This document shows, piece after piece, positions 3,534 through 43,943 of a DNA stretch of 52,062 nucleotides (its first letter is position 1; the number at the start of each line of letters is the position of its first letter). A model generated the notes under the pieces. The model saw only the letters and a program-made list of their open reading frames with translations. It was not told the DNA's origin and did not search any database. Where the stretch lies: positions 1-52,062 of IMG/VR virus record IMGVR_UViG_3300031576_000061; one strand, 5' to 3'. A program made the translations under genes and the position numbers. The stretch comes from a virus.

Positions 3534-6063
3534 CCTGGCCCCGAATACGGGCGAAATACCCGTCGAGGGCAGCGACACGCCGCTTCAGGACCCTCAGATG
3601 GGCGGCGACGCGCTCATTGAGTCCGCCGAGCAGCTTGAGAAGGGCGATCCACAACCGCCAGCCAAGTCGGCCATGCCGCCCGCGAGTAAGTCGCTGGAGA
3701 TCAAGGACCGCGAGCAGGTGGTTCGCGATGTCCTCAAGCTCTACACGGACGACATCCGTGATCGGTCCGAGTGGAACGAGGCACGCATCCAGCGGACGGC
3801 GAAATATCGTGGCTGGCGGGAGCCGAAAGCCTACCCGTGGCCTGGAGCGAGCAACGCGCACCTGCCGATTATCATGACCGACGTGCAGCGGACCGAGGAC
3901 ACGCTGCATAACGCCGTGTTGAGCGTGCGCCCGGTCATGAATGCGAAGGCGGGCCACCCCAACGACGTGGAGAAGGAGCGTGGGGTAGACCTGCTCCTGG
4001 ACTACCAGGTGTTCAAGGAGAACGACGGCGAGTATCGGGTTGCCAAACTGATTAGTAGCTTCGTGCAGGACGGGATGTTCGTCTGTTTCACGCCGTGGGT
4101 GCATGAGAAGCAGGTCATTTCGACCCTCTATCACCTCCCCTTCCCTGTGGCGAACAAGTCGTGGGACACATACATCTGGGAAGCGCTGCGTGGGTACTAC
4201 CCAGAGGCGGTGGTCCTGCCAACCGGCGACCAGTGGCGATTCGAGGTACGAGAGGAGAACGATTTCACCGGTCAGGTCAAGAGCTTCTTCGTGGACGTGA
4301 CCGCGTCAGAGACCGGCGTGCAACTGGCCTGTCGCCATGACGAGACGACGTTTGAGGGACCGTGTCTCATCCCCAAGGAATTGGAAGATGTGGTTGTGCC
4401 GATCCGGTGCGAAAATCTTCAGCCGCGCACTGTCGCCAATCCTACAGGAGCCGATCGAGTTATCCTTGTGGATTATCCCAGTCTCGACGAAATCAAGCGA
4501 CTGCGTGCTCATGGTTTTTACGACCTTATCACCGACGCGGATATGGGAAGGCTCGATGAACTCCGAGGAGCGTCCCAAGCCGGTATCGCCGCCAACGATC
4601 CTGAAGGTCAAAAGAAGCTGAAGGACGACCTGGAAGGTCGTGCGCTCGCTCATGAGGGAGCCGACCCCGATACGCAACCGGGGCGGAAAACATTCACGCG
4701 ACTCATGTTCTTTGGGAGGGCAGACCATGACGGTGACGGCCTTGAGGAAGATGTTATTTACTGGGTCATCGAAGAAGCGAAAGTTCTTCTTCGAGCGCGG
4801 TACCTTACCGCGGTGTACCCTTCGAATCCTCCTCGGCGACCATTGCAGTGTGCCAAGTACATTCCTATCAATGACCGTTTCTATGCCATCGGACTCATCG
4901 AACTCATGGAGTCCGGCTACGACATCATCAAAGAAACCTTCGATCAAATGATCGACGCGGGCTGGCTGGCGAATATGCCATTCGGCTTCTACCGCCCGGC
5001 GTCCAGCATGAAGCCCCAACAGATCAAGCTGTCCCCCGGTGCGATGATTCCGTTAGGGTCACCCCAGCAGGACGTGTTCTTCCCGCAACTCCAGAACGGG
5101 ATGACGGCGTTCGGCATGAACATCACGGCGATGGTCATGCAAATCCTGGATCAAGTGACCCTCGTCGGACAGCTTCAATTGGGCGGAGTGCCCCAAGGCA
5201 AGTCGTCAGCACTGCGGACAAGCCAGAATATGCAATCGCTCCTGCAGCAGGGTGACGCGCGCCCGGAGCGCGTGTTACGGAGGTTCTTTAGTGGTCTTGC
5301 AGAAATTTGGCGACAGTTTCATATCCTCGATAAAGCCTTCCTACCAGCCGGTAAGAAGTTCCGTATTCAAGTGGAGCTGGAACCCGGAAACAACCCTTAT
5401 TTGGAGGTGGCGGACCCGCAAGCACTCGAAGGCGACTTCGACTTTGAATTTGGAGCCAACATACTTAACTCTAATCGCGCGCTGTCCAGTCAAGCCACAC
5501 AGGAGATCCTGAGCGTCATCGTGAATCCGATGCTGCTGATGATGGGGATTGTCACCCCACAGCACGTCTATAACGCACTCAAGGAAGTAATTCGGAGCAA
5601 GGGGCAGGCCCCACAGAAATACATCCAACCCCCGCAGGGCATGGTCGATGACGGCCGTCCATTCTTCACCGCGGAAGACGCCATCAACGCGGCCTGCAAT
5701 GGTCAGATGCCCTACGGGAAAGCGATGGAGCCGCTGGATCAGCACCTGACGAAGATCATGGAGTTCATGCAGCAGACGCTGGAGCACCCTGAGCTGATTA
5801 GCGAGCAGGGCGCGAAGATACTCGGCGTCTACGCGGCGCAAGTCCAGGCCGAGATGCAAGCGCTGATGCAGCAACAGCAGATGATGGCACAGGCGCAGGC
5901 CATGCAGCAGCAGCTTCAGGGCAAGCAGGACAGTAAACCCGGGCCGAAGGGCGAGACCAACCCCGGTGCTCAAGGTCCGGCGGGGAACGCACCACTCCAG
6001 GGCCGTGAGTTAGCTGACGAGAGCCTCCCGGGAGCGGGCGGTGGAGCCAACACCGGTGGCTAG
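3523..6063 (+). CDS. Portal protein
   Basis: 846 residues, in the range of large podovirus portals. It forms the dodecameric ring at the capsid vertex through which DNA passes. YPWPGASN (104-111), common in this portal type, precedes a long alpha/beta body. The last ~90 residues are Gln/Met-rich and then Gly/Pro-rich, as in portals with a C-terminal barrel or disordered tail. It follows terL with an 11-bp overlap; the ATG has CGGGAG upstream. Confidence 0.9.
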   Translation: MADDLAPNTGEIPVEGSDTPLQDPQMGGDALIESAEQLEKGDPQPPAKSAMPPASKSLEIKDREQVVRDVLKLYTDDIRDRSEWNEARIQRTAKYRGWREPKAYPWPGASNAHLPIIMTDVQRTEDTLHNAVLSVRPVMNAKAGHPNDVEKERGVDLLLDYQVFKENDGEYRVAKLISSFVQDGMFVCFTPWVHEKQVISTLYHLPFPVANKSWDTYIWEALRGYYPEAVVLPTGDQWRFEVREENDFTGQVKSFFVDVTASETGVQLACRHDETTFEGPCLIPKELEDVVVPIRCENLQPRTVANPTGADRVILVDYPSLDEIKRLRAHGFYDLITDADMGRLDELRGASQAGIAANDPEGQKKLKDDLEGRALAHEGADPDTQPGRKTFTRLMFFGRADHDGDGLEEDVIYWVIEEAKVLLRARYLTAVYPSNPPRRPLQCAKYIPINDRFYAIGLIELMESGYDIIKETFDQMIDAGWLANMPFGFYRPASSMKPQQIKLSPGAMIPLGSPQQDVFFPQLQNGMTAFGMNITAMVMQILDQVTLVGQLQLGGVPQGKSSALRTSQNMQSLLQQGDARPERVLRRFFSGLAEIWRQFHILDKAFLPAGKKFRIQVELEPGNNPYLEVADPQALEGDFDFEFGANILNSNRALSSQATQEILSVIVNPMLLMMGIVTPQHVYNALKEVIRSKGQAPQKYIQPPQGMVDDGRPFFTAEDAINAACNGQMPYGKAMEPLDQHLTKIMEFMQQTLEHPELISEQGAKILGVYAAQVQAEMQALMQQQQMMAQAQAMQQQLQGKQDSKPGPKGETNPGAQGPAGNAPLQGRELADESLPGAGGGANTGG

Positions 6064-6226
6064 AAGGGAGCAATTTGAAGTTTACTGCTCAACCTGTGGC
6101 CGAACATGGGGACGTGTGGTGGTGGAGATCGACCGCGACGGCGTCGGGCGCAATCGACCTGATGGGACCATACCCCGGCGATGCGACTGCGGTCCTGCGG
6201 GTTGTTTGCAAAGGCGTGCTGTTTAA
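6041..6226 (+). CDS. Small zinc-ribbon protein
   Basis: 61 residues starting at GTG 6041 inside the end of the portal gene. VYCSTCGRTW and a later RCDCG supply a Cys-X2-Cys plus Cys-X-Cys metal site around a beta hairpin. A competing frame (TTG 6075 to 6287) has no such pattern and would run over the next start. One of many tiny zinc-ribbon genes in this genome; function unknown. Confidence 0.55.
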   Translation: MEPTPVARREQFEVYCSTCGRTWGRVVVEIDRDGVGRNRPDGTIPRRCDCGPAGCLQRRAV

Positions 6227-6246
6227 TTTAACCATTGGAGGGGATC

Positions 6247-6585
6247 ATGGGAGTGGACATCAACGATTACCGGAGGCAACGGACTGAGCAAGCGAACGAG
6301 GTACAGCCTGAACCGGTTAAGAACCCGTTCGCGGACCTGCCCGCGGTGGACGTGACCGAGTACCTGACTGAGAACGAGACCTTCAATAACATGGCCCGAA
6401 AGATGGGCGTCTATCTCGCCCAGCTCAAGGCCATCCAGCAGGATTGCCAGAGTAAGCTCCCGGAGTCGCTCAACGAGCAGGCGACACGGGCGCTGTCGAT
6501 TCAGTATTGGCGTCATTGGGGGCTGGAGAACGGCGTGCGTGCGGTCCTCCAAGCTCTGAAACAAGAAGCCGGTGGAAGTAAGTAA
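6247..6585 (+). CDS. Hypothetical helical protein in the head module
   Basis: 112 residues. ATG chosen because GGAGGGGATC directly precedes it; an upstream in-frame TTG (6235) would destroy this spacing. Predominantly helical with charged residues (TEYLTENETFNNMARKMGVYL). It sits between portal and scaffold, so a head-assembly role is plausible but not shown. Confidence 0.65.
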   Translation: MGVDINDYRRQRTEQANEVQPEPVKNPFADLPAVDVTEYLTENETFNNMARKMGVYLAQLKAIQQDCQSKLPESLNEQATRALSIQYWRHWGLENGVRAVLQALKQEAGGSK

Positions 6586-6627
6586 CGCTCATTGAGCGCG
6601 GTGTTCAGGACGGCCACAACAGTCCTG
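6586..6627 (+). other. Two small hairpins before the scaffold gene
   Basis: CGCTC-ATT-GAGCG (6586-6598) and CAGGAC with GTCCTG (6606-6611 and 6622-6627) are perfect short inverted repeats in a 71-bp gap. No T-run follows, so they are not classical terminators. Confidence 0.35.
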
Positions 6628-6656
6628 CGGTAGCCAAGCCAGAAATGAGGCATGTC

Positions 6657-7538
6657 ATGGACGAATCGTTGGAAATGGAGCAAGCAATCGTATCAGGAGT
6701 CCCAGCTCAACCTGTATCAACGCCTGTCGCACAGCCGCCTACTCCTCTGGAGCCGGTGTCAGTCGCGCCCGTCTTGGAAGCGCCTGTCATCGAAAGTCCA
6801 GAAGCCGTGGCGCCTGAGCCGCACCCGTTAGACCCAGGTGGAGTGAGATTCAAGCAAGTCGTGGCCCGCGCACACAAGGAGCGCGATCGGGCCGATGCGC
6901 TAGAGACCGAACTGGCGGCAATCCGCGCCGAGATCGACGCGTTGAGACAGCCGACAGGCTCCGGACCAACCACCCCAACGTGGGTGGACCTGGAGCAAGG
7001 CATCGCTGAGGGCCGGTTCACCCGTGCCCAGGCGAACGACTTCCGCGAGAAGGAACTCCTGAAACAAGTCGCGGTGGTGGCTGAACAGAAGATCGCCGAG
7101 CGCCAAGCTGATAACGCCGTTGGCGATCAACTGTATAAGTACCAGACGTCCGCCCCAGACCTGCAGGATCGGAACAGTGTACTGCGGATGCGGGTCGATC
7201 AAGAGTTCGATTACATCCTGGCCCTGCAAGGCCGTGATGCCCGAGCGCTCACCTCGCGTGATCGCCGGAGGTTCGAACTCCAAGCGATACGGGCGGTCCT
7301 TGGTCCAGTGGAAGCGATTCGTCAAATTGCTCGTCCCAGACCGGAGCCCACGATGGAAATACACGGTGCTACCCAGAAGCCACAGTCAAAGCCGGTCAAC
7401 CCTGACCAAAAACTGTTGGACGCCCTGACCCCTGAACAGGTGGCGCATTATCGCAAGATGATGAACGCCGGTCAGTATAAGGGCGGTTGGAAGGAAATCG
7501 TGGAAGAGATTAAGTGGGTGCCGCCTGTGAGGCAGTGA
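6657..7538 (+). CDS. Putative scaffolding protein
   Basis: 293 residues. A Pro/Val/Ala/Glu-rich disordered N-terminus leads into a coiled coil (HKERDRADALETELAAIRA) and a helical, basic C-terminal region that would dock the capsid protein. Composition, size and position before the capsid gene are those of podovirus scaffolds, which assemble inside the prohead and then leave. ATG 6657 has ATGAGG six bases upstream; ATG 6645 would add four residues. Confidence 0.72.
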   Translation: MDESLEMEQAIVSGVPAQPVSTPVAQPPTPLEPVSVAPVLEAPVIESPEAVAPEPHPLDPGGVRFKQVVARAHKERDRADALETELAAIRAEIDALRQPTGSGPTTPTWVDLEQGIAEGRFTRAQANDFREKELLKQVAVVAEQKIAERQADNAVGDQLYKYQTSAPDLQDRNSVLRMRVDQEFDYILALQGRDARALTSRDRRRFELQAIRAVLGPVEAIRQIARPRPEPTMEIHGATQKPQSKPVNPDQKLLDALTPEQVAHYRKMMNAGQYKGGWKEIVEEIKWVPPVRQ

Positions 7539-7539
7539 C

Positions 7540-7938
7540 ATGCGCTCAGACATCTATGTGAAGCGGAAGGACAGTAGTTGGACACAAAAGGAACTCAACG
7601 ACGCGATGCTCCATCCGGGGCGTCGGCACGGGAAGCCGCATGGGTCGTATGTCGTTGATCTGGCGGACCTGCGGAAGCTGATTCTGCTCTGTCCGTTGTG
7701 CAACAGCAAGTTCGACTACAAGCGTCACCGCTTTCGAATGGAAAAAGAGTTCCGCTACGTGATCGCCAACTGTGACGCGTGCCGGACGTTGGATACGCAC
7801 TGCTCCATGTACATCGCAGAAGAGACGTACATGACGGTGCGTTCGACAGCCGACGAGCGTCGTGGGTTGGCAAAGTGGCGGCAGAAAGTCATCGAGCGGA
7901 AGGGCGATCTGAACGACCCCCCTCCGCGCAACATCTAG
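7540..7938 (+). CDS. Zinc-finger-like hypothetical protein
   Basis: 132 residues, one base after the scaffold stop. LLCPLCNSKF and NCDACRTLDTHC give two Cys-X2-Cys pairs that could form a treble-clef or ribbon fold. Basic with a charged C-terminus. No catalytic HNH residues stand out. Role in the head module unknown. Confidence 0.65.
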   Translation: MRSDIYVKRKDSSWTQKELNDAMLHPGRRHGKPHGSYVVDLADLRKLILLCPLCNSKFDYKRHRFRMEKEFRYVIANCDACRTLDTHCSMYIAEETYMTVRSTADERRGLAKWRQKVIERKGDLNDPPPRNI

Positions 7939-7947
7939 AGGAATCAC

Positions 7948-8637
7948 ATGCAACTAGCATACTTGCTCAATGGTGGGCAGGCTAACATTCGGAAGTACAA
8001 GGTGAACGCGACGCACGTAAACAACATCATCGTGCTTCGTGGCTCCGCTGCACAGTCCGGGTTAGCCGTGTCTACCATAACTTCATGGACCGACAGTATG
8101 GGTCTCACCCTGGATCAGGGTCTGTTCCAGGGTGCGACGATCGCCTACAGCACCGTGCAGGGCGATCCCGAAGCCGTGTATAGCATCCTAATCAACACCG
8201 ACGCCGTCTATCGGGCGCTGCTCGTCGGCAGTGCGACCGACGCCGTGCTTACGGATAACGCGATCCTTACCGCCTCAGCAGCGGGTCTGACCGCAGTTGG
8301 CACGAATAGCGTGTCCAACCTGGATGGCGGAACGATCTGGTATACGAGCGGTCCGAACGTGGGTCGTTCGAGGATTATCGAATCGGTGGCGACCGCAACC
8401 GCCACGGTCCTCGTGCCGTTCGCCGCGAACGCGGTCGGCGACGTGTTCTTGGTTCATAACATGCGTCCGGGTCTGGTAGGTTCGACGATGAACACCGCCC
8501 TGACGAACGTCCTTCAGAACAACACCGCGATCACCGGCACGACCGGGATCATGGTGGATAATGAACTGAACGGCAATAGCAACAGCTACCTGCATCTCAT
8601 GCAGTCGGATAGTGCATTCGGAGCAGCGGCCACATAA
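7948..8637 (+). CDS. Putative capsid decoration protein
   Basis: 229 residues, Ala/Thr/Gly/Val-rich, with repeated beta segments (GGTIWYTSGPNVGRSRII, ATATVLVPFAANAVGDVF) in the style of small head-stabilising proteins. It directly precedes the major capsid gene, a common position for decoration proteins. Assignment is by composition and neighbourhood only. Confidence 0.5.
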   Translation: MQLAYLLNGGQANIRKYKVNATHVNNIIVLRGSAAQSGLAVSTITSWTDSMGLTLDQGLFQGATIAYSTVQGDPEAVYSILINTDAVYRALLVGSATDAVLTDNAILTASAAGLTAVGTNSVSNLDGGTIWYTSGPNVGRSRIIESVATATATVLVPFAANAVGDVFLVHNMRPGLVGSTMNTALTNVLQNNTAITGTTGIMVDNELNGNSNSYLHLMQSDSAFGAAAT

Positions 8638-8686
8638 GCTGATTAACATAGCCTTCCGATTAGCGAATGTCTATGTTGCGATCAGC
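8638..8686 (+). other. Intergenic stem-loop before the capsid gene
   Basis: GCTGATTAACATAG (8638-8651) pairs with CTATGTTGCGATCAGC (8671-8686): 6 bp, a bulge, then 7 bp, with a 19-base loop. It occupies most of the 73-bp gap ahead of the capsid start. With no U-tract it could protect or process the capsid mRNA, or weaken read-through. Confidence 0.45.
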
Positions 8687-8710
8687 CGAATGCGTTAGAA
8701 GGTACGTTTC

Positions 8711-9625
8711 ATGCCAACACCAATGTCAGCAGGTTCGATGGTAGACCTGATTGATAAGCGCGTCACGAAGATTTTCCATGACGAGCTGAGTCAGCTACCC
8801 GATCGAGTCGGTGAGTTCTACGGCATGCAATCCTCCAAGGACAGCTTCGAGAAGTGGTCCGAGGTTGGTGCGCTGCCAGATTTCAGTCAGTTCAACGGAA
8901 CCGTGGTTTACAACTCCCAGAGCCAAGGGTACGATACAATCGTGACCCACTTGGAGTGGGTGAACGGGTTCCAAATCAACCGTGACCTGTACGACGACGA
9001 CCGGCATGGGTTGTGGAGCCAGCGTCCCGCTGCGCTCGCCAACGCTTACAACCGGACCCGCCAGGCGCACGGTGCGCGTCTGTTCAACAACGCCTTCGCC
9101 TTGGACACGTTATTCTACGTGAACAGCGAAGCAGTGTCCCTGTGTAACGACTCGCATACCACAACTAGTGGTGCGAGTACGGCATCGGGATTCGATAACC
9201 GTGTCACGTCCAGCTTAACCGCCGTCGCCGTCGGTTCACTGCGCACGACCATGCGCGGGTTTCGTGGCGACCAAGCCGAGCGGTTCGACTGCATGCCGAG
9301 CAAGATCGTCGTGCCGATTGATCTCGCCGATCGTCTCGATGAGATCATCAAGTCGGACAAGCAGCCGGACAGCGCAAACAACAACATGAACCCCCAGTAT
9401 GGTCGCTTCAGTGGGACCGATTGGGAGTACCTCACCGACACGAACAACTGGTTCATGCTTGATGAGCGGAACATGAAGAAGTTCAACGTCTGGTTCGACC
9501 GTATTCCGCTAGAGTTTGGTCGGGCGGAAGAGTTCGATACCTTCGTTGCCAAGTGGCGTGCGTACTGTCGGTACGCGAACGCCTGGTTCAACTGGCGCTT
9601 CATCGCCGGAAGTCAGGTGAGCTAA
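8711..9625 (+). CDS. Major capsid protein
   Basis: 304 residues. It has the look of an HK97-fold shell protein: a helical N-terminus, then IVTHLEWVNGFQINRDLYDD (E-loop/P-domain region), a spine helix with AYNRTRQAHGARLFNNAFA, and a C-terminal beta region with Trp/Tyr-rich end. These segments recur in capsid proteins of several tailed phages. ATG has GAAGGT upstream. Order scaffold, decoration, capsid supports the call. Confidence 0.85.
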   Translation: MPTPMSAGSMVDLIDKRVTKIFHDELSQLPDRVGEFYGMQSSKDSFEKWSEVGALPDFSQFNGTVVYNSQSQGYDTIVTHLEWVNGFQINRDLYDDDRHGLWSQRPAALANAYNRTRQAHGARLFNNAFALDTLFYVNSEAVSLCNDSHTTTSGASTASGFDNRVTSSLTAVAVGSLRTTMRGFRGDQAERFDCMPSKIVVPIDLADRLDEIIKSDKQPDSANNNMNPQYGRFSGTDWEYLTDTNNWFMLDERNMKKFNVWFDRIPLEFGRAEEFDTFVAKWRAYCRYANAWFNWRFIAGSQVS

Positions 9626-34262: not shown

Positions 34263-34993
34263 CGTTTCACCGCCTTTCGTCCTGTTGACCATCCGCCGCA
34301 GTCATTGCACTGGTACTGCGGGTAGCGGAGGCGTTGTTTGATTGATGTTCCCTGATACGTCGTGTTCTTACTCCCACACTTGTCACAGACCAGCCGCTCA
34401 CGGTAGGCACTGATGAGCGGGTGCGCGCTGATCCATGGGAGTACACGCTTGTAGAGCTTCTCCAACGCCTGTACGTCGCCCTTGTTGTAGCGGCGCATCT
34501 CCTCCCAGCACGACGTGTCCCCCTTCATACAGCCGACCCATAGTTGAAAGCCGCGATGTTTTACCTTCTGTCCCATAGAGAGCGTCTTGAGTACAGCGTC
34601 TAGCTTATTGGACTCAAAACGGAAGGCCGCACGCACTACACGGAGCATATCCACCTGCTTGTATGGTGACGGCGGTGTCAAACCATGCGTCAGAAACTCT
34701 TTATTAAGTGTTGGGAGATCAAAATTCATGCCGTTGTAGGTAACAACGATGTCAGCCTCATCCAAAAGCTTATGAATGCCGCTCAGCATCTCTTTCGGCG
34801 TATCATGCTGAATGGACTTATATATGATTGTAGAGTGCCCAAGCCATTTAGCCGACCAACATAAGATTGCACTTGATAGTTCAATATGGTCGTGACTAAT
34901 ATTTTGCCGCCACAGCCCCCAAGTATAGACCGTGTTGGGAGACGTTTCGATGTCCGCGAATAGAATTTTAGGTGTTGCCACGTTTTGCCTCAC
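34259..34993 (-). CDS. DnaQ-like 3'-5' exonuclease with C-terminal zinc ribbon
   Basis: 244 residues, GTG start. RNase H-like exonuclease motifs are complete: FADIETSP (D14, E16), VVTYNGMNFDLP (D92) and YNKGD (Y169, D173), a YXXXD-type site. C203, C206, C229 and C232 form a zinc ribbon after the nuclease. It may trim DNA during replication or recombination or degrade host DNA. The 5' end overlaps the homing-endonuclease-like gene by 26 bp. Confidence 0.82.
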   Translation of the reverse strand: MRQNVATPKILFADIETSPNTVYTWGLWRQNISHDHIELSSAILCWSAKWLGHSTIIYKSIQHDTPKEMLSGIHKLLDEADIVVTYNGMNFDLPTLNKEFLTHGLTPPSPYKQVDMLRVVRAAFRFESNKLDAVLKTLSMGQKVKHRGFQLWVGCMKGDTSCWEEMRRYNKGDVQALEKLYKRVLPWISAHPLISAYRERLVCDKCGSKNTTYQGTSIKQRLRYPQYQCNDCGGWSTGRKAVKR

Positions 34994-35357
34994 TTAAACA
35001 ACGTGGAGCTGTCCTGCCTGCGCCCTGATCGTTTTTAACTCGCAGGGAACGCCAGTGCGTAACAGATTTTCGGATAGCTTGTCGTCGTCGCATTCCCAAC
35101 AGCGGATACAACGTTAACATCCACGCGACAGCATTTCGTGCATACAGTGCCGTTGTGTAAACGTCTTTATAGTGTGCCCCTCGTACTCGATGTTGAACTC
35201 TACTGCGAAACAATCTAGCAACATGCTCTACAACGTCTTTATCTGTCATGCTAACGTTAAGCCGAGGCGTCCGGGTTTTGCGAGTACCGCCGTTTAACCC
35301 AAAACAGCCTTCACCTTCTAACAGCCCTGCAAGCCACATGATTTCACGTAATGTCAT
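34968..35357 (-). CDS. LAGLIDADG-like homing endonuclease, single motif
   Basis: 129 residues, ATG overlapping the lysozyme stop (ATGA). IMWLAGLLEGEGCFGLNGG is a LAGLIDADG motif with the acidic residue in place; PRLNVSMTDKDVVEHVARLF is the usual following strand-helix. One motif implies a homodimer. It is a free-standing selfish gene wedged between lysozyme and exonuclease and overlaps both. Confidence 0.75.
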   Translation of the reverse strand: MTLREIMWLAGLLEGEGCFGLNGGTRKTRTPRLNVSMTDKDVVEHVARLFRSRVQHRVRGAHYKDVYTTALYARNAVAWMLTLYPLLGMRRRQAIRKSVTHWRSLRVKNDQGAGRTAPRCLSEAKRGNT

Positions 35358-35791
35358 GACGGGTACGTGCCTGTTAGTAGCATAGTAAAAATATCGTCGC
35401 TCCGTTCTTTTTGCACCTGTTGATACCACTTGCTTTGCTTCAACCGGTCCACGGCACCGGCGTAGTCACCTGTCTCAAGCGCACGGATCGTGTTCTTGAA
35501 CCCACTGAAACTCGTGATGCCCATGTTGAACACGAGGTTCGTTAGAGCATCCTGGCGTACTCCGTCCAGTGTCCGAAACACCGGGAAGGCGCTAAACAGT
35601 GTGTTGCGCGCCTCAGTGATGGCTAGGTCAAGGAGTTGTTCAGCCACGGGGAGCGGCAGCCCGTTATCGCACAGATTCCACCCCCATCCTATTGTCCATT
35701 TGCCCACACTGTCTTGATACAGTTTCGCATTGCCGTTAGGCAGCCGCGGACAGCCCTCGTGACGTTTCAACATGTCCCTTAACGCGTTCAT
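35354..35791 (-). CDS. T4-type lysozyme (endolysin, GH24)
   Basis: 145 residues, no signal peptide, so release depends on the holin. The catalytic triad of T4 lysozyme is present: Glu12 in RHEG, Asp27 in LYQDSVGKWTIGWG and Thr33. ALTNLVFNMGITSFSGFKN matches the C-terminal lobe. It cleaves peptidoglycan between MurNAc and GlcNAc. It lies on the leftward arm, about 5 kb from the holin, which is on the opposite strand. Confidence 0.92.
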   Translation of the reverse strand: MNALRDMLKRHEGCPRLPNGNAKLYQDSVGKWTIGWGWNLCDNGLPLPVAEQLLDLAITEARNTLFSAFPVFRTLDGVRQDALTNLVFNMGITSFSGFKNTIRALETGDYAGAVDRLKQSKWYQQVQKERSDDIFTMLLTGTYPS

Positions 35792-37626: not shown

Positions 37627-37879
37627 GTTCGTCCCTCCGTTTGTAGTAGGCGCACAGTCGAGCGGCCACTTCGGCGATGGTTAAGTCTACACTCGTGACA
37701 CGGCGCGCGCAACCCATCCGCGGCACGATCTCGTCAAGCTCCGTGACGAAGCCGTTGCTGACTTCCTTCACCGTGATGACGGTCATGTACTTGGGGATCG
37801 GCTCGACGCTGAACTGAGTGTCAAGCTTGCCCATCACTTGCGCCAGCGCCTTCATGTCAGGCAGGTCATTGGCTTCCAT
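37562..37879 (-). CDS. Hypothetical protein after the polymerase
   Basis: 105 residues, overlapping the polymerase C-terminal gene by 28 bp and the next gene by 65 bp. YMTVITVKEVSNGFVTEL forms a beta pair; the C-terminus is polar. Not recognised. Possibly an accessory to the polymerase by operon position only. Confidence 0.5.
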   Translation of the reverse strand: MEANDLPDMKALAQVMGKLDTQFSVEPIPKYMTVITVKEVSNGFVTELDEIVPRMGCARRVTSVDLTIAEVAARLCAYYKRRDEHEATTTPSDHPVQPDATGNYF

Positions 37880-38784
37880 GCGTACTCCCTTCCTGTGTCA
37901 TCAGCGATGTAGAACGTTGCCGGGAACGCAGTAAGCCGACCGCTGATTGTTCGTGAGCGGGTTGCAAGTTGTGCAGCACCCACGAGGTGCGCGTGTATTG
38001 TGGGATCAGTTGGAGCGCCACCCAGGACATCCCATTTATGTGAATCGTGCATGCCCCAACGGAATTGTAGGCTCCCAACGTGTTGCGTTGCAATATCATA
38101 CAACACATCCTCGTAGATGTCCATACAGCCACCCTGCATGGGGTGGTTCATGGCCTGGCGCGCCGCTTCCTCGCCCGTCTCGATCAGGGTACGCCGTCGT
38201 CCGCAGAACGTGTAGATCGTGCCCCGTTTTGCTGCGTGAACCGCGCAACAACGCTGGAACGCGCGCACGGCAGGATGCGCGTTCAGCCAGTTCTCACTCG
38301 CTTGGACGAGGCCACGAATATCGAGTCCGAGATGCACCACCCCTGGGATATCGGTGCAGGTATCTGGGCGTGCTCCATAGAGCAGTCGATAGACAAACCG
38401 TTTGGCAAATGTACGGCGCATGTCCTTTTTTCCATGCCAGTCAATTCGATCAGCCCACCGCGCTGTTGCATCGTCGGCCAGATTGAACGGGTCAACTGGA
38501 TTTGGGGGCGGCTGTAATCGAAAGATCTCACAGGCAGACAGCGTGTGCACGTCATAACCCCTCTCGAAGGCGTCGATTAACGGACGGTCGTGTGCCTCGC
38601 TCGCGACGATCCGTAGCTCGATCTGATCCCAGTCGTACCCCCACTCCCACCCGCCCACTTCGGGAAGCACGAGCTTCCGTAAGTCCTCCGGCAGTTGTGC
38701 AAGCGGCGGATGGACCGTGCTGTGCCGACCACTGACCTGTGTATGGACCTGGATCTCTGGATAGCACCGTTCGACGATCTTCAC
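37852..38784 (-). CDS. DNA polymerase, family A, C-terminal (palm/fingers) fragment
   Basis: 310 residues. Motif A YDWDQIELR (Asp51), motif B with R124, K128, Y132, Y136-G137, and motif C MHDSH (Asp247) are present, so the active site looks functional; the usual Glu after HD is Ser. The E. coli Phe762 equivalent is Tyr132, as in T7. The thumb, exonuclease and UDG domains are on a separate upstream ORF in the same frame. GTG start overlaps the stop of the intervening ORF (GTGA) and has no good ribosome site of its own. Confidence 0.9.
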   Translation of the reverse strand: MKIVERCYPEIQVHTQVSGRHSTVHPPLAQLPEDLRKLVLPEVGGWEWGYDWDQIELRIVASEAHDRPLIDAFERGYDVHTLSACEIFRLQPPPNPVDPFNLADDATARWADRIDWHGKKDMRRTFAKRFVYRLLYGARPDTCTDIPGVVHLGLDIRGLVQASENWLNAHPAVRAFQRCCAVHAAKRGTIYTFCGRRRTLIETGEEAARQAMNHPMQGGCMDIYEDVLYDIATQHVGSLQFRWGMHDSHKWDVLGGAPTDPTIHAHLVGAAQLATRSRTISGRLTAFPATFYIADDTGREYAWKPMTCLT

Positions 38785-39000
38785 AGTTGAATCGCGTTCG
38801 GCGTGCTATCAGCGGCCTCTGCCGAGACCACCGTCAGCATGATCGCGTCATTATTCAGGTCCATGTACATGTGGAGGTGTGTGTCAGTTCCCTCCAAGGC
38901 CTTCATCGGAACCACCGCCTGGCCCCCCATGTTCATCACCATGTAGCGTAGGACGTGCTTCACGAGTGCGAACACTGCTTCCTGTTGCGTCACGTTCCAC
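38768..39000 (-). other. 225-nt insertion segment with flanking 8-mers
   Basis: GTGGAACG (39000-38993 on the minus strand) and GTCGAACG (38775-38768) flank the inserted ORF at a distance of exactly 225 bases, a multiple of three. Both encode V-E-R in the same reading frame. Removing one repeat unit would rejoin the polymerase into one ORF of about 843 codons. The frame between them carries TGA, TAA-TGA and TGA-TAG. Confidence 0.65.
38781..38993 (-). CDS. ORF inserted between the polymerase halves
   Basis: 70 residues from a GTG within GGAACGTGACG of the upstream polymerase ORF. It ends in the GTGA that starts the downstream half. AVFALVKHVLRYMVMNMGG then VVPMKALEGTDTHLHMYMD and AIMLTVVSAEA suggest a small alpha/beta domain. 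No endonuclease motif is seen. It could be a bridging subunit of a split polymerase or cargo of an inserted element. Confidence 0.65.
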   Translation of the reverse strand: MTQQEAVFALVKHVLRYMVMNMGGQAVVPMKALEGTDTHLHMYMDLNNDAIMLTVVSAEAADSTPNAIQL

Positions 39001-40608
39001 CAATGGTTTCAGGTAATATGAGACCGTCTGTTGCAACTGACTTTTCATCGCCCTGAGTTCGAGTAAGGGGTGGGCACCCTGCTTGATTCGATCCAGCAAG
39101 TAGGCGACAGTAAATCCTCGCTTCTCTGTATCTGCATCGAAAGCGCAAAACTTCCGTCGCTCCTCCGCGATAGTGTCACGGTTGATCGACACGACGTCGA
39201 TCCGATCGTACTCGCGCAAATGCTGCGCGACCTGTCCATTTGGACCAGGCGACATGAGATTGATGGGGTAGCCACAGTACGCCTCCGCGAGTTGTCCACA
39301 AAACGCCAGTCGCACGCCGTAGTCGGTCAGCATGGCCTCGACGAGCGGCTGGTTGACGCGTAGGCCGAGTGCCTCACGCTCCATGATGATCGGCAACAGC
39401 CGCCGCTTCCGTTCGTACGTCGCTTCCACCTGCGCGTCGAGCGTCAGTTGATACTTCAGCTTCCGGATGATCTCGACAGACTCAATGATGTCACCCCAAT
39501 TATACAGGAGTGGGTCAGTTTTGCTTAAATGTTTGAGCTTGACATATTCTCCAAGTACGCTCGCGACGTATTCGAGGCGATGCTCATAGTCACTCCAGAG
39601 AACGTGGTGGAGGTACATACCGTCGTCCATGTGACGGTAGCCGGTGACTTCGATCCCCATGGCCCTTCGAAGAACCGGTACGTCGGCTTTCGCGTTCCAG
39701 AACCAGACAGGTTTGGAAGCAGCCAATCTGGCGAATTGCGAAACAAAACGCGCTCGGGTGCCTGGGGCGGCAGTGGAACGGCACCAGACAACTTGGCCAC
39801 CCACAACAGTTCCCCCCGCGGCGGGTCCCCCAATTCCAACCAGCTGAAGTATCCGCGTTTTAACACCATACTCGGTATCCACGACCACCCAAGGGGTCGC
39901 CTTCAATGAGGCAAAGATTTGATCGACGTCTTTAGGTGTCTGCGCGACTATCCGGTCGGGGATTGGCTTGGGCCATGTACCCATAAGAAGTTTACCGATG
40001 CGTGCCCAGTCCAGTCGTGAGGGTACGAGGAGGCTACGATCTCGAAACAAGTCGGCAGGGTGGACAACGCAAAATGTCGTCTGATGTGCAAATTGGGTCG
40101 GAATGAGGTACCCTCGATACTCCGATACGTGGGCAGGCTTGCCAGCCGGGTTCCTGACCTGGGCACCACCGAGTTTATTAAACGCATACGCTCCCATCGC
40201 CACAACGACCTGCGTCTGTGGCGGGACGTGAAAGTATTGATCGCAACAGGCCACCGCGTCGGCCAGCATCTTGCCCTTGGGCATGCGATTCGACCGCTTG
40301 CCGTTGACGACCAACCGACACTTCAGCACGTTCATCAGGTTGACCTGATCGCGCCTCAGCCCCGCCAGCGGCAACCACGTATGATCGACGCTATACCCGG
40401 TCGCGCCGACTAACGGTTGTGGAGTACACGGCTCGTAGAATGGTTTCCCCCCAATGTACTCCACAACTCGTCGGCCTATTTCCTCGTCCACGCCAGGGTT
40501 CTGCGCGACGAGGGTGACACGTGCGTCCGTTTGGATCAGGTCAGGGACGAATCCTTTCATGTCACCTGCCAGCGGGCAGCCTTTACACGTGTCAGGCTTT
40601 GGTAGCAC
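38884..40608 (-). CDS. UDG domain fused to exonuclease and thumb of DNA polymerase (N-terminal part)
   Basis: 574 residues, GTG start. Residues 1-210 are a family 4/5-like uracil-DNA glycosylase: CKGC (C8, C11), VAQNPGVDEE, NVLKC (C97), CC (121-122) and HPADL (183-187), with four Fe-S cysteines. A 3'-5' exonuclease follows (D244, E246 in VVDTEYG; D309 in NAKAD), then the polymerase thumb up to about residue 538. The last 36 residues are a Gly/Asp-rich read-through of the inserted segment. The palm is on another ORF. Confidence 0.88.
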   Translation of the reverse strand: MLPKPDTCKGCPLAGDMKGFVPDLIQTDARVTLVAQNPGVDEEIGRRVVEYIGGKPFYEPCTPQPLVGATGYSVDHTWLPLAGLRRDQVNLMNVLKCRLVVNGKRSNRMPKGKMLADAVACCDQYFHVPPQTQVVVAMGAYAFNKLGGAQVRNPAGKPAHVSEYRGYLIPTQFAHQTTFCVVHPADLFRDRSLLVPSRLDWARIGKLLMGTWPKPIPDRIVAQTPKDVDQIFASLKATPWVVVDTEYGVKTRILQLVGIGGPAAGGTVVGGQVVWCRSTAAPGTRARFVSQFARLAASKPVWFWNAKADVPVLRRAMGIEVTGYRHMDDGMYLHHVLWSDYEHRLEYVASVLGEYVKLKHLSKTDPLLYNWGDIIESVEIIRKLKYQLTLDAQVEATYERKRRLLPIIMEREALGLRVNQPLVEAMLTDYGVRLAFCGQLAEAYCGYPINLMSPGPNGQVAQHLREYDRIDVVSINRDTIAEERRKFCAFDADTEKRGFTVAYLLDRIKQGAHPLLELRAMKSQLQQTVSYYLKPLVERDATGSSVRTREARPTLHGDEHGGPGGGSDEGLGGN

Positions 40609-43401: not shown

Positions 43402-43863
43402 CTATAGCGTACGTCCATCAAAGTCACGCTTTAAGAGGGCTACGACCTTTTCGGCGCTTTCGAGAGTGTTGGTTCCGATTTTGTTACGGTTGCACGCATG
43501 GCAGGCGAGACAACGGACACGTCCCGTCTTATGATCGTGTTCGATGGCGAGGTTTCGTGTCTTTGGCGGGTGCCCACAGATAGCACAGACACCGCCTTGT
43601 AATACAAACAGCTTCTGGTACTGCGCTTCCGTGATCCCGTATTTTCGTAATAGGTACGCGGTATTACGTTCCCTTTGGTATAGCGAGTGGCACGGTCTAC
43701 AGTACCCAGACCGCTGTGTGCGGTCACGATACTGTCCCTTTGGGGAGAACTCGCTGATAAACTTGACTCTCCCACACTTTGGGCAGGCCTTCGTCATACT
43801 CTGCTGCTCTCTGTAAGAAGCAGATATTCGATTCTTGTGTCTTTTTGTCTCGGCGCCACTCAT
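43402..43863 (-). CDS. HNH (endonuclease VII-type) homing endonuclease
   Basis: 153 residues from the ATG with AAAGGAGACAGT upstream. CPKCGR and CRPCH form one zinc site. CAICGHPPKTRNLAIEHDHK followed by RCLACHACN is the recombination endonuclease VII HNH motif with catalytic His in HDH. A free-standing nuclease gene between the replication ATPase and the PD-(D/E)XK nuclease; likely mobile. Confidence 0.82.
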   Translation of the reverse strand: MSGAETKRHKNRISASYREQQSMTKACPKCGRVKFISEFSPKGQYRDRTQRSGYCRPCHSLYQRERNTAYLLRKYGITEAQYQKLFVLQGGVCAICGHPPKTRNLAIEHDHKTGRVRCLACHACNRNKIGTNTLESAEKVVALLKRDFDGRTL

Positions 43864-43943
43864 ACTGTCTCCTTTTAAACACACTGGCGAGCGTTTCGGT
43901 CGTACATGATGCTAAAATGGTATCACATTTACCCTCACCCTCA

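Follow-up and report, generated by a model that had tools for sequence, protein, structure and literature searches.

Split polymerases and genes in pieces in phages

Family A DNA polymerases encoded in pieces were described in the isolated Methylophilales phages MEP401 and MEP402 (OP830906, OP830907), where the polymerase occupies two ORFs with a small ORF of unknown function between them. The polymerases of their relatives from the same group are mostly split too, and the authors weighed an intron as the explanation and left the question open (PMC10580990). In MEP401, the polymerase is broken directly before motif A, and the small ORF codes for 77 amino acids.

Essential genes broken by small inserted genes are also known in T4-like phages, where they were called genes-in-pieces: the nrdA gene of phage Aeh1 is split by mobE, and gene 43 of Aeromonas phage 25 is split with a seg endonuclease. 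The split Aeh1 NrdA is fully active, and the split gp43 of phage 25 co-purifies with polymerase activity (PMC2988022). In phage MIJ3, a split intein is found between the polymerase halves (PMC6892783).

Here we describe a split polymerase from an uncultured phage, encoded in a 52,062-nucleotide stretch of DNA (IMG/VR record IMGVR_UViG_3300031576_000061, positions 1 to 52,062; hereafter, the window). The arrangement of its reading frames probably reflects fission of the polymerase gene by the insertion of a small gene that does not code for an endonuclease, with the two halves probably reassembling non-covalently. In this locus both the break point and the inserted gene are new, within a kind of arrangement already known from MEP401/MEP402 and from genes-in-pieces. 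The thumb-palm junction where the break is found is a new natural break point beside those of the few known split family A polymerases, and a polymerase family of uncultured phages that was broken repeatedly is a test case for the ways in which essential enzymes survive insertion. Splits of this sort also offer natural designs for split polymerases.

Organization of the locus

Between positions 40608 and 37852 on the minus strand of the window, the place of one continuous family A DNA polymerase gene is taken up by three reading frames that overlap:

38884 to 40608, minus strand: N-part, a UDG-superfamily domain, 3'-5' exonuclease and thumb, 574 amino acids
38781 to 38993, minus strand: ORF70, the inserted 70-codon gene with a GTG start, which shares 110 nt with the N-part and 4 nt with the C-part
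38781 to 38784, minus strand: GTGA stop-start overlap, formed by the ORF70 stop TGA and the C-part start GTG, as read from the sequence
37852 to 38784, minus strand: C-part, 310 amino acids, with the palm, the fingers and catalytic motifs A, B and C

A preliminary description of the region, made from the letters alone, had proposed that two polymerase ORFs lie in the same frame, that this frame is interrupted by several stops between them while ORF70 occupies a different one, and that the parts belong to a UDG-exonuclease-polymerase. The first two points agree with the sequence, and the third is borne out by homologues. The N-part matches the Pfam UDG model (9.3e-8) and its PHROG is DNA polymerase; its exonuclease and thumb were identified by the PHROG match and by alignment with continuous relatives. 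The C-part matches the Pfam DNA_pol_A model (4.9e-24), shares 40-43% identity with its nearest continuous relatives and contains motif A (DWDQIELRI), the motif B region (RRTFAKRFVYRLLYG) and motif C (HDS). Pfam reveals nothing else in the two parts, and in particular no intein domain at the broken ends. Since the C-part starts only four residues before the conserved ERxYP stretch, there is no room for an intein at this end.

The same description had GTGA overlaps coupling ORF70 to both halves of the polymerase, which is true of the ORF70/C-part junction only. At the upstream junction, the GTGA is part of CGT-GAC in the frame of the N-part, and this frame runs 35 codons further, to a stop ending at 38884. 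The last 35 residues of the N-part are thus an off-frame reading of ORF70 DNA, and the codon score of this tail is like that of off-frame DNA.

Both halves are separate open frames with their own starts and stops, as is the case for genes-in-pieces. Of the residues invariant in the family, the window polymerase keeps 56/60 in the N-half and 25/28 in the C-half; L037, a divergent relative with a continuous polymerase, keeps 56/67 and 25/28, respectively. Conservation is comparable to that of L037, and by this measure there is no sign of enzyme decay in either half.

The break point is located in a permissive loop

All 14 related contigs that were recovered read through the break point, i.e., homologues are continuous at the site, as they are for genes-in-pieces. 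These contigs are L001, L014 (the same sequence family as L002-L005), L007 (MW202742), L009, L011, L012, L013, L017, L019, L020, L021, L027, L037 and the C-part of L049. The break point corresponds to a loop whose length is very variable among the relatives. In the structural model of the L001 polymerase (pLDDT 88.9), whose best PDB matches include Pol I, Klenow and Bst polymerases, it is found just after helix 485-507, the last helix of the thumb, and in the family profile it is directly before TGRVHTSY of the Klenow fragment. The break point is a permissive junction between the thumb and the palm.

In some relatives this loop carries up to 30-odd residues in frame, and the length of the insert is a multiple of three. 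Both facts would fit an ordinary in-frame domain of 70 residues, made to look like a split by a pair of single-base errors, close to the two ends, that compensate each other. The two indels, however, would also have to leave behind a start codon, a stop codon and the GTGA overlap, and a comparable domain is found at this site in no relative; we consider this explanation very unlikely.

The ends of the insert

The features that bear on the ends of the insert are the following:

38785 to 39003, minus strand: inferred insert, about 219 nt long, flanked by the thumb codons for LKP and by GTG-AAG-ATC in the palm half, placed by the residue spacing of short-loop relatives
38993 to 39000, minus strand: 8-mer GTGGAACG, named in the preliminary description, probably incidental
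38768 to 38775, minus strand: 8-mer GTCGAACG, named in the preliminary description, probably incidental

The two 8-mers, GTGGAACG and GTCGAACG, are exactly 225 nt apart, as had been noticed, and the segment between them had been taken for an excisable unit. They carry little weight because they differ by one base and because such 8-mers are present elsewhere in the window. We rejected them as insertion ends: with excision there, the end of the thumb helix and the palm Y/H-P pair would be separated by 7 residues, a spacing absent in the relatives. Short-loop relatives usually have 9 residues there (e.g., L001, L009 and L037), and L014 has 8. When LKP of the thumb is joined to VKIVERC, with which the C-part itself begins, the result is 9 residues, i.e., the spacing of most short-loop relatives, and the insert is therefore likely to be about 219 nt long and to extend from 38785 to 39003, as estimated from spacing in a loop of variable length. 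The 8-mers are then probably incidental, and the GTG with which the C-part starts was probably a valine codon already in the uninterrupted gene.

The possible explanations offered earlier included a minimal intron removed from the RNA. The polymerase frame is preserved across the segment, which would fit a small self-splicing intron, and works cited in PMC10580990 describe group I introns in DNA polymerase genes of phages. However, the search with Rfam covariance models gave no intron match at the gathering threshold and none that was relevant at E<=10, the segment folds no better than its shuffled versions (z -0.68), and ORF70 fills 213 of the 219-225 nt; excision at the 8-mers would produce a spacing found in no relative. 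An intron is accordingly extremely improbable.

Another proposal was that ribosomes pass over the segment in an unusual bypass and make one full-length polymerase; a double frameshift would have the same outcome. The frames are compatible with such recoding, and the GAA codon present in both 8-mers could be a take-off and landing codon. In bypass of the T4 gene 60 type, a stop codon directly follows the take-off codon and the gap is short (about 50 nt in T4). Here GAA is followed by CGT and not by a stop, and the skipped stretch of 225 nt is coding; to our knowledge, the gaps of the known bypasses are several times shorter. By inspection, there are no recoding signals, and no slippery heptamer at the 3' overlap that a double frameshift might use. 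We regard production of a full-length polymerase in either of these ways as highly improbable.

The inserted gene

The remaining proposal, a split caused by an inserted gene, is supported by the properties of ORF70 itself. Its codon log-odds is 0.304, compared to 0.20+-0.10 for genes of the phage, and none of the off-frame 70-codon chunks reaches this value. Judged by codon usage and by its own start and stop, ORF70 looks like a protein-coding gene, and it is connected to the catalytic half by the GTGA overlap. The relatives point in the same direction, being continuous at the site while others of them are split elsewhere by unrelated ORFs.

The splitting of the polymerase by ORF70 is known from one metagenome assembly, and the case for it rests on this assembly. 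It may be asked, then, whether the arrangement, seen in one genome only, is an artefact of assembly or of a mixed population, or a polymerase that was disabled recently, in a doomed genome. We find this unlikely since the insert has the GC content of the phage (0.564 in both) and its codon usage, both halves are intact, and independent splits are present in relatives and in isolates. No nucleotide match was found among phage records, searches of GTDB genomes did not turn up the polymerase, and no close strain with the polymerase locus was recovered. A close strain does exist: the 9.2-kb IMG/VR contig L050 codes for a terminase (L050:2001-3674) that shares 93% identity with that of the window, and this fragment has no polymerase match.

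The AlphaFold2 model of ORF70, built from the single sequence, is moderately confident (mean pLDDT 74) and consists of one helix and three strands. ORF70 has no significant match in Pfam, PHROGs, NCBIfam or PDB sequences. Nothing significant was found in pattern searches of IMG/VR and GTDB genomes, in tblastn searches of phage records, or in a six-frame search of the recovered related loci. A weak match was obtained in L021, to a small ORF upstream of the polymerase (phmmer E 0.37). Fold searches with the model gave weak matches only: the best VIA-align hit is rudivirus ORF131 (Z 5.0, rmsd 3.8 over 61 residues), and the best Foldseek E-values are 0.05 among viral structures and 0.3 in the PDB.

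ORF70 also has no match to homing-endonuclease families among Pfam, PHROG and NCBIfam models. The window resembles the T4-like cases in that an essential replication gene is broken by a small inserted gene, with stop-start overlaps; it differs from them in that ORF70 matches no endonuclease family, whereas homing endonucleases go with their inserts, and in that gp43 belongs to family B. Two ORFs on the minus strand of the window, each a few kb from the polymerase region, are possible homing endonucleases: a LAGLIDADG-like ORF, HNH endonuclease by PHROG (34968-35429), and, on the other flank, an Endonuclease VII-type ORF (43402-43884).

Translation of the three cistrons

Upstream of ORF70 there is one element that may attract ribosomes:

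38997 to 39001, minus strand: GGTGG, a weak Shine-Dalgarno-like stretch before ORF70, -4.9 kcal/mol with the anti-SD

This pairing is close to that calculated for the N-part (-5.3 kcal/mol), while about 20% of random sites reach -4.6 kcal/mol. The C-part has no Shine-Dalgarno match (+0.1 kcal/mol), and the only start codon seen on inspection before its conserved SGRHS motif is the GTG within the ORF70 stop.

We propose that ORF70 was inserted into the permissive thumb-palm loop of a phage family A DNA polymerase, and that one gene was thereby turned into three cistrons coding for UDG-exonuclease-thumb, ORF70 and palm-fingers. The two polymerase pieces would be made separately, and a working polymerase would most likely arise from their non-covalent assembly. 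The C-part lacks its own ribosome-binding site and is probably translated by ribosomes that reinitiate at the GTGA after finishing ORF70, and in this way ORF70 would gate the synthesis of the catalytic half.

Splits elsewhere in the polymerase family

The UDG-exonuclease-polymerase is in pieces in 5 of 15 genomes, the window included. In L018, L019 and L027, the split is found at the boundary of UDG and exonuclease, at the same WRG site, and the inserted genes are different. In L018/L009 (L018:5995-8999), an HNH gene of the Endonuclease VII type and an ORF of 72 aa come between UDG and the exonuclease-polymerase. In L019 (L019:4257-7995) the boundary is occupied by three ORFs, of which one is dCTP deaminase-like, and in L027/L047 (L047:893-1387 with L027:3807-5855) about 4 kb with glycosyltransferase-like genes lie between the parts. 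These three cases concern the same enzyme family as the window, but their break is between UDG and exonuclease. In L049 (L049:4001-6852), as in the window, the split is within the polymerase itself: it is caused by one small ORF of 68 aa with coding-like codon usage, and there is a stop-start overlap, ATGA. The break in L049 is, however, inside the thumb and not in the thumb-palm loop, the halves are in different frames, and the ORF is unrelated to ORF70. As read from these genomes, the family has been split repeatedly, at three different places, by unrelated genes most of which are not endonucleases.

The MEP401 and MEP402 polymerases resemble that of the window in having the family A polymerase domain split by one tightly packed small ORF of no known family. 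They belong to another lineage, in which a UDG domain is not noted, and are broken before motif A and not in the thumb-palm loop; the 77-aa ORF of MEP401 has no significant similarity to ORF70. No similarity is detectable among the inserted small ORFs as a whole, i.e., ORF70, those of its relatives and the MEP401 ORF.

This comparison bears on the suggestion that ORF70 is a bridging subunit, i.e., an obligate third component that holds the thumb half and the palm half together in a true three-part polymerase. ORF70 is a well-adapted coding gene with a reasonably well predicted fold, it is placed exactly between the halves and would control synthesis of the catalytic one through the GTGA overlap, and L049 and MEP401 also have a small ORF between the halves of a family A polymerase. 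The three small ORFs are, however, mutually unrelated, no relative of ORF70 was detected in the searches described above, and continuous relatives need no such protein. The suggestion is not supported by these data, and we consider unlikely a three-component polymerase of this kind, in which ORF70 would be a required bridge and small stitching proteins would have joined the enzyme on separate occasions at a number of break points, both in this family and among MEP401-like phages. ORF70 is more probably cargo, or what is left of a mobile cassette, than a protein dedicated to bridging the two halves.

Endonuclease-like genes are found at or near the polymerases of other members of the family. 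Just upstream of the L049 split, an ORF at 3640-4026 contains HNH-like CxxC...CxxC residues and has no Pfam match. In L020, an Endonuclease VII-type HNH gene (6461-6928) is nested out of frame within the polymerase ORF (5992-8991), at the boundary of UDG and exonuclease. The polymerase frame stays open through the HNH gene, which is allowed by only 0.08% of synonymous permutations of this gene, suggesting that in L020 both the HNH and the polymerase frames are kept.
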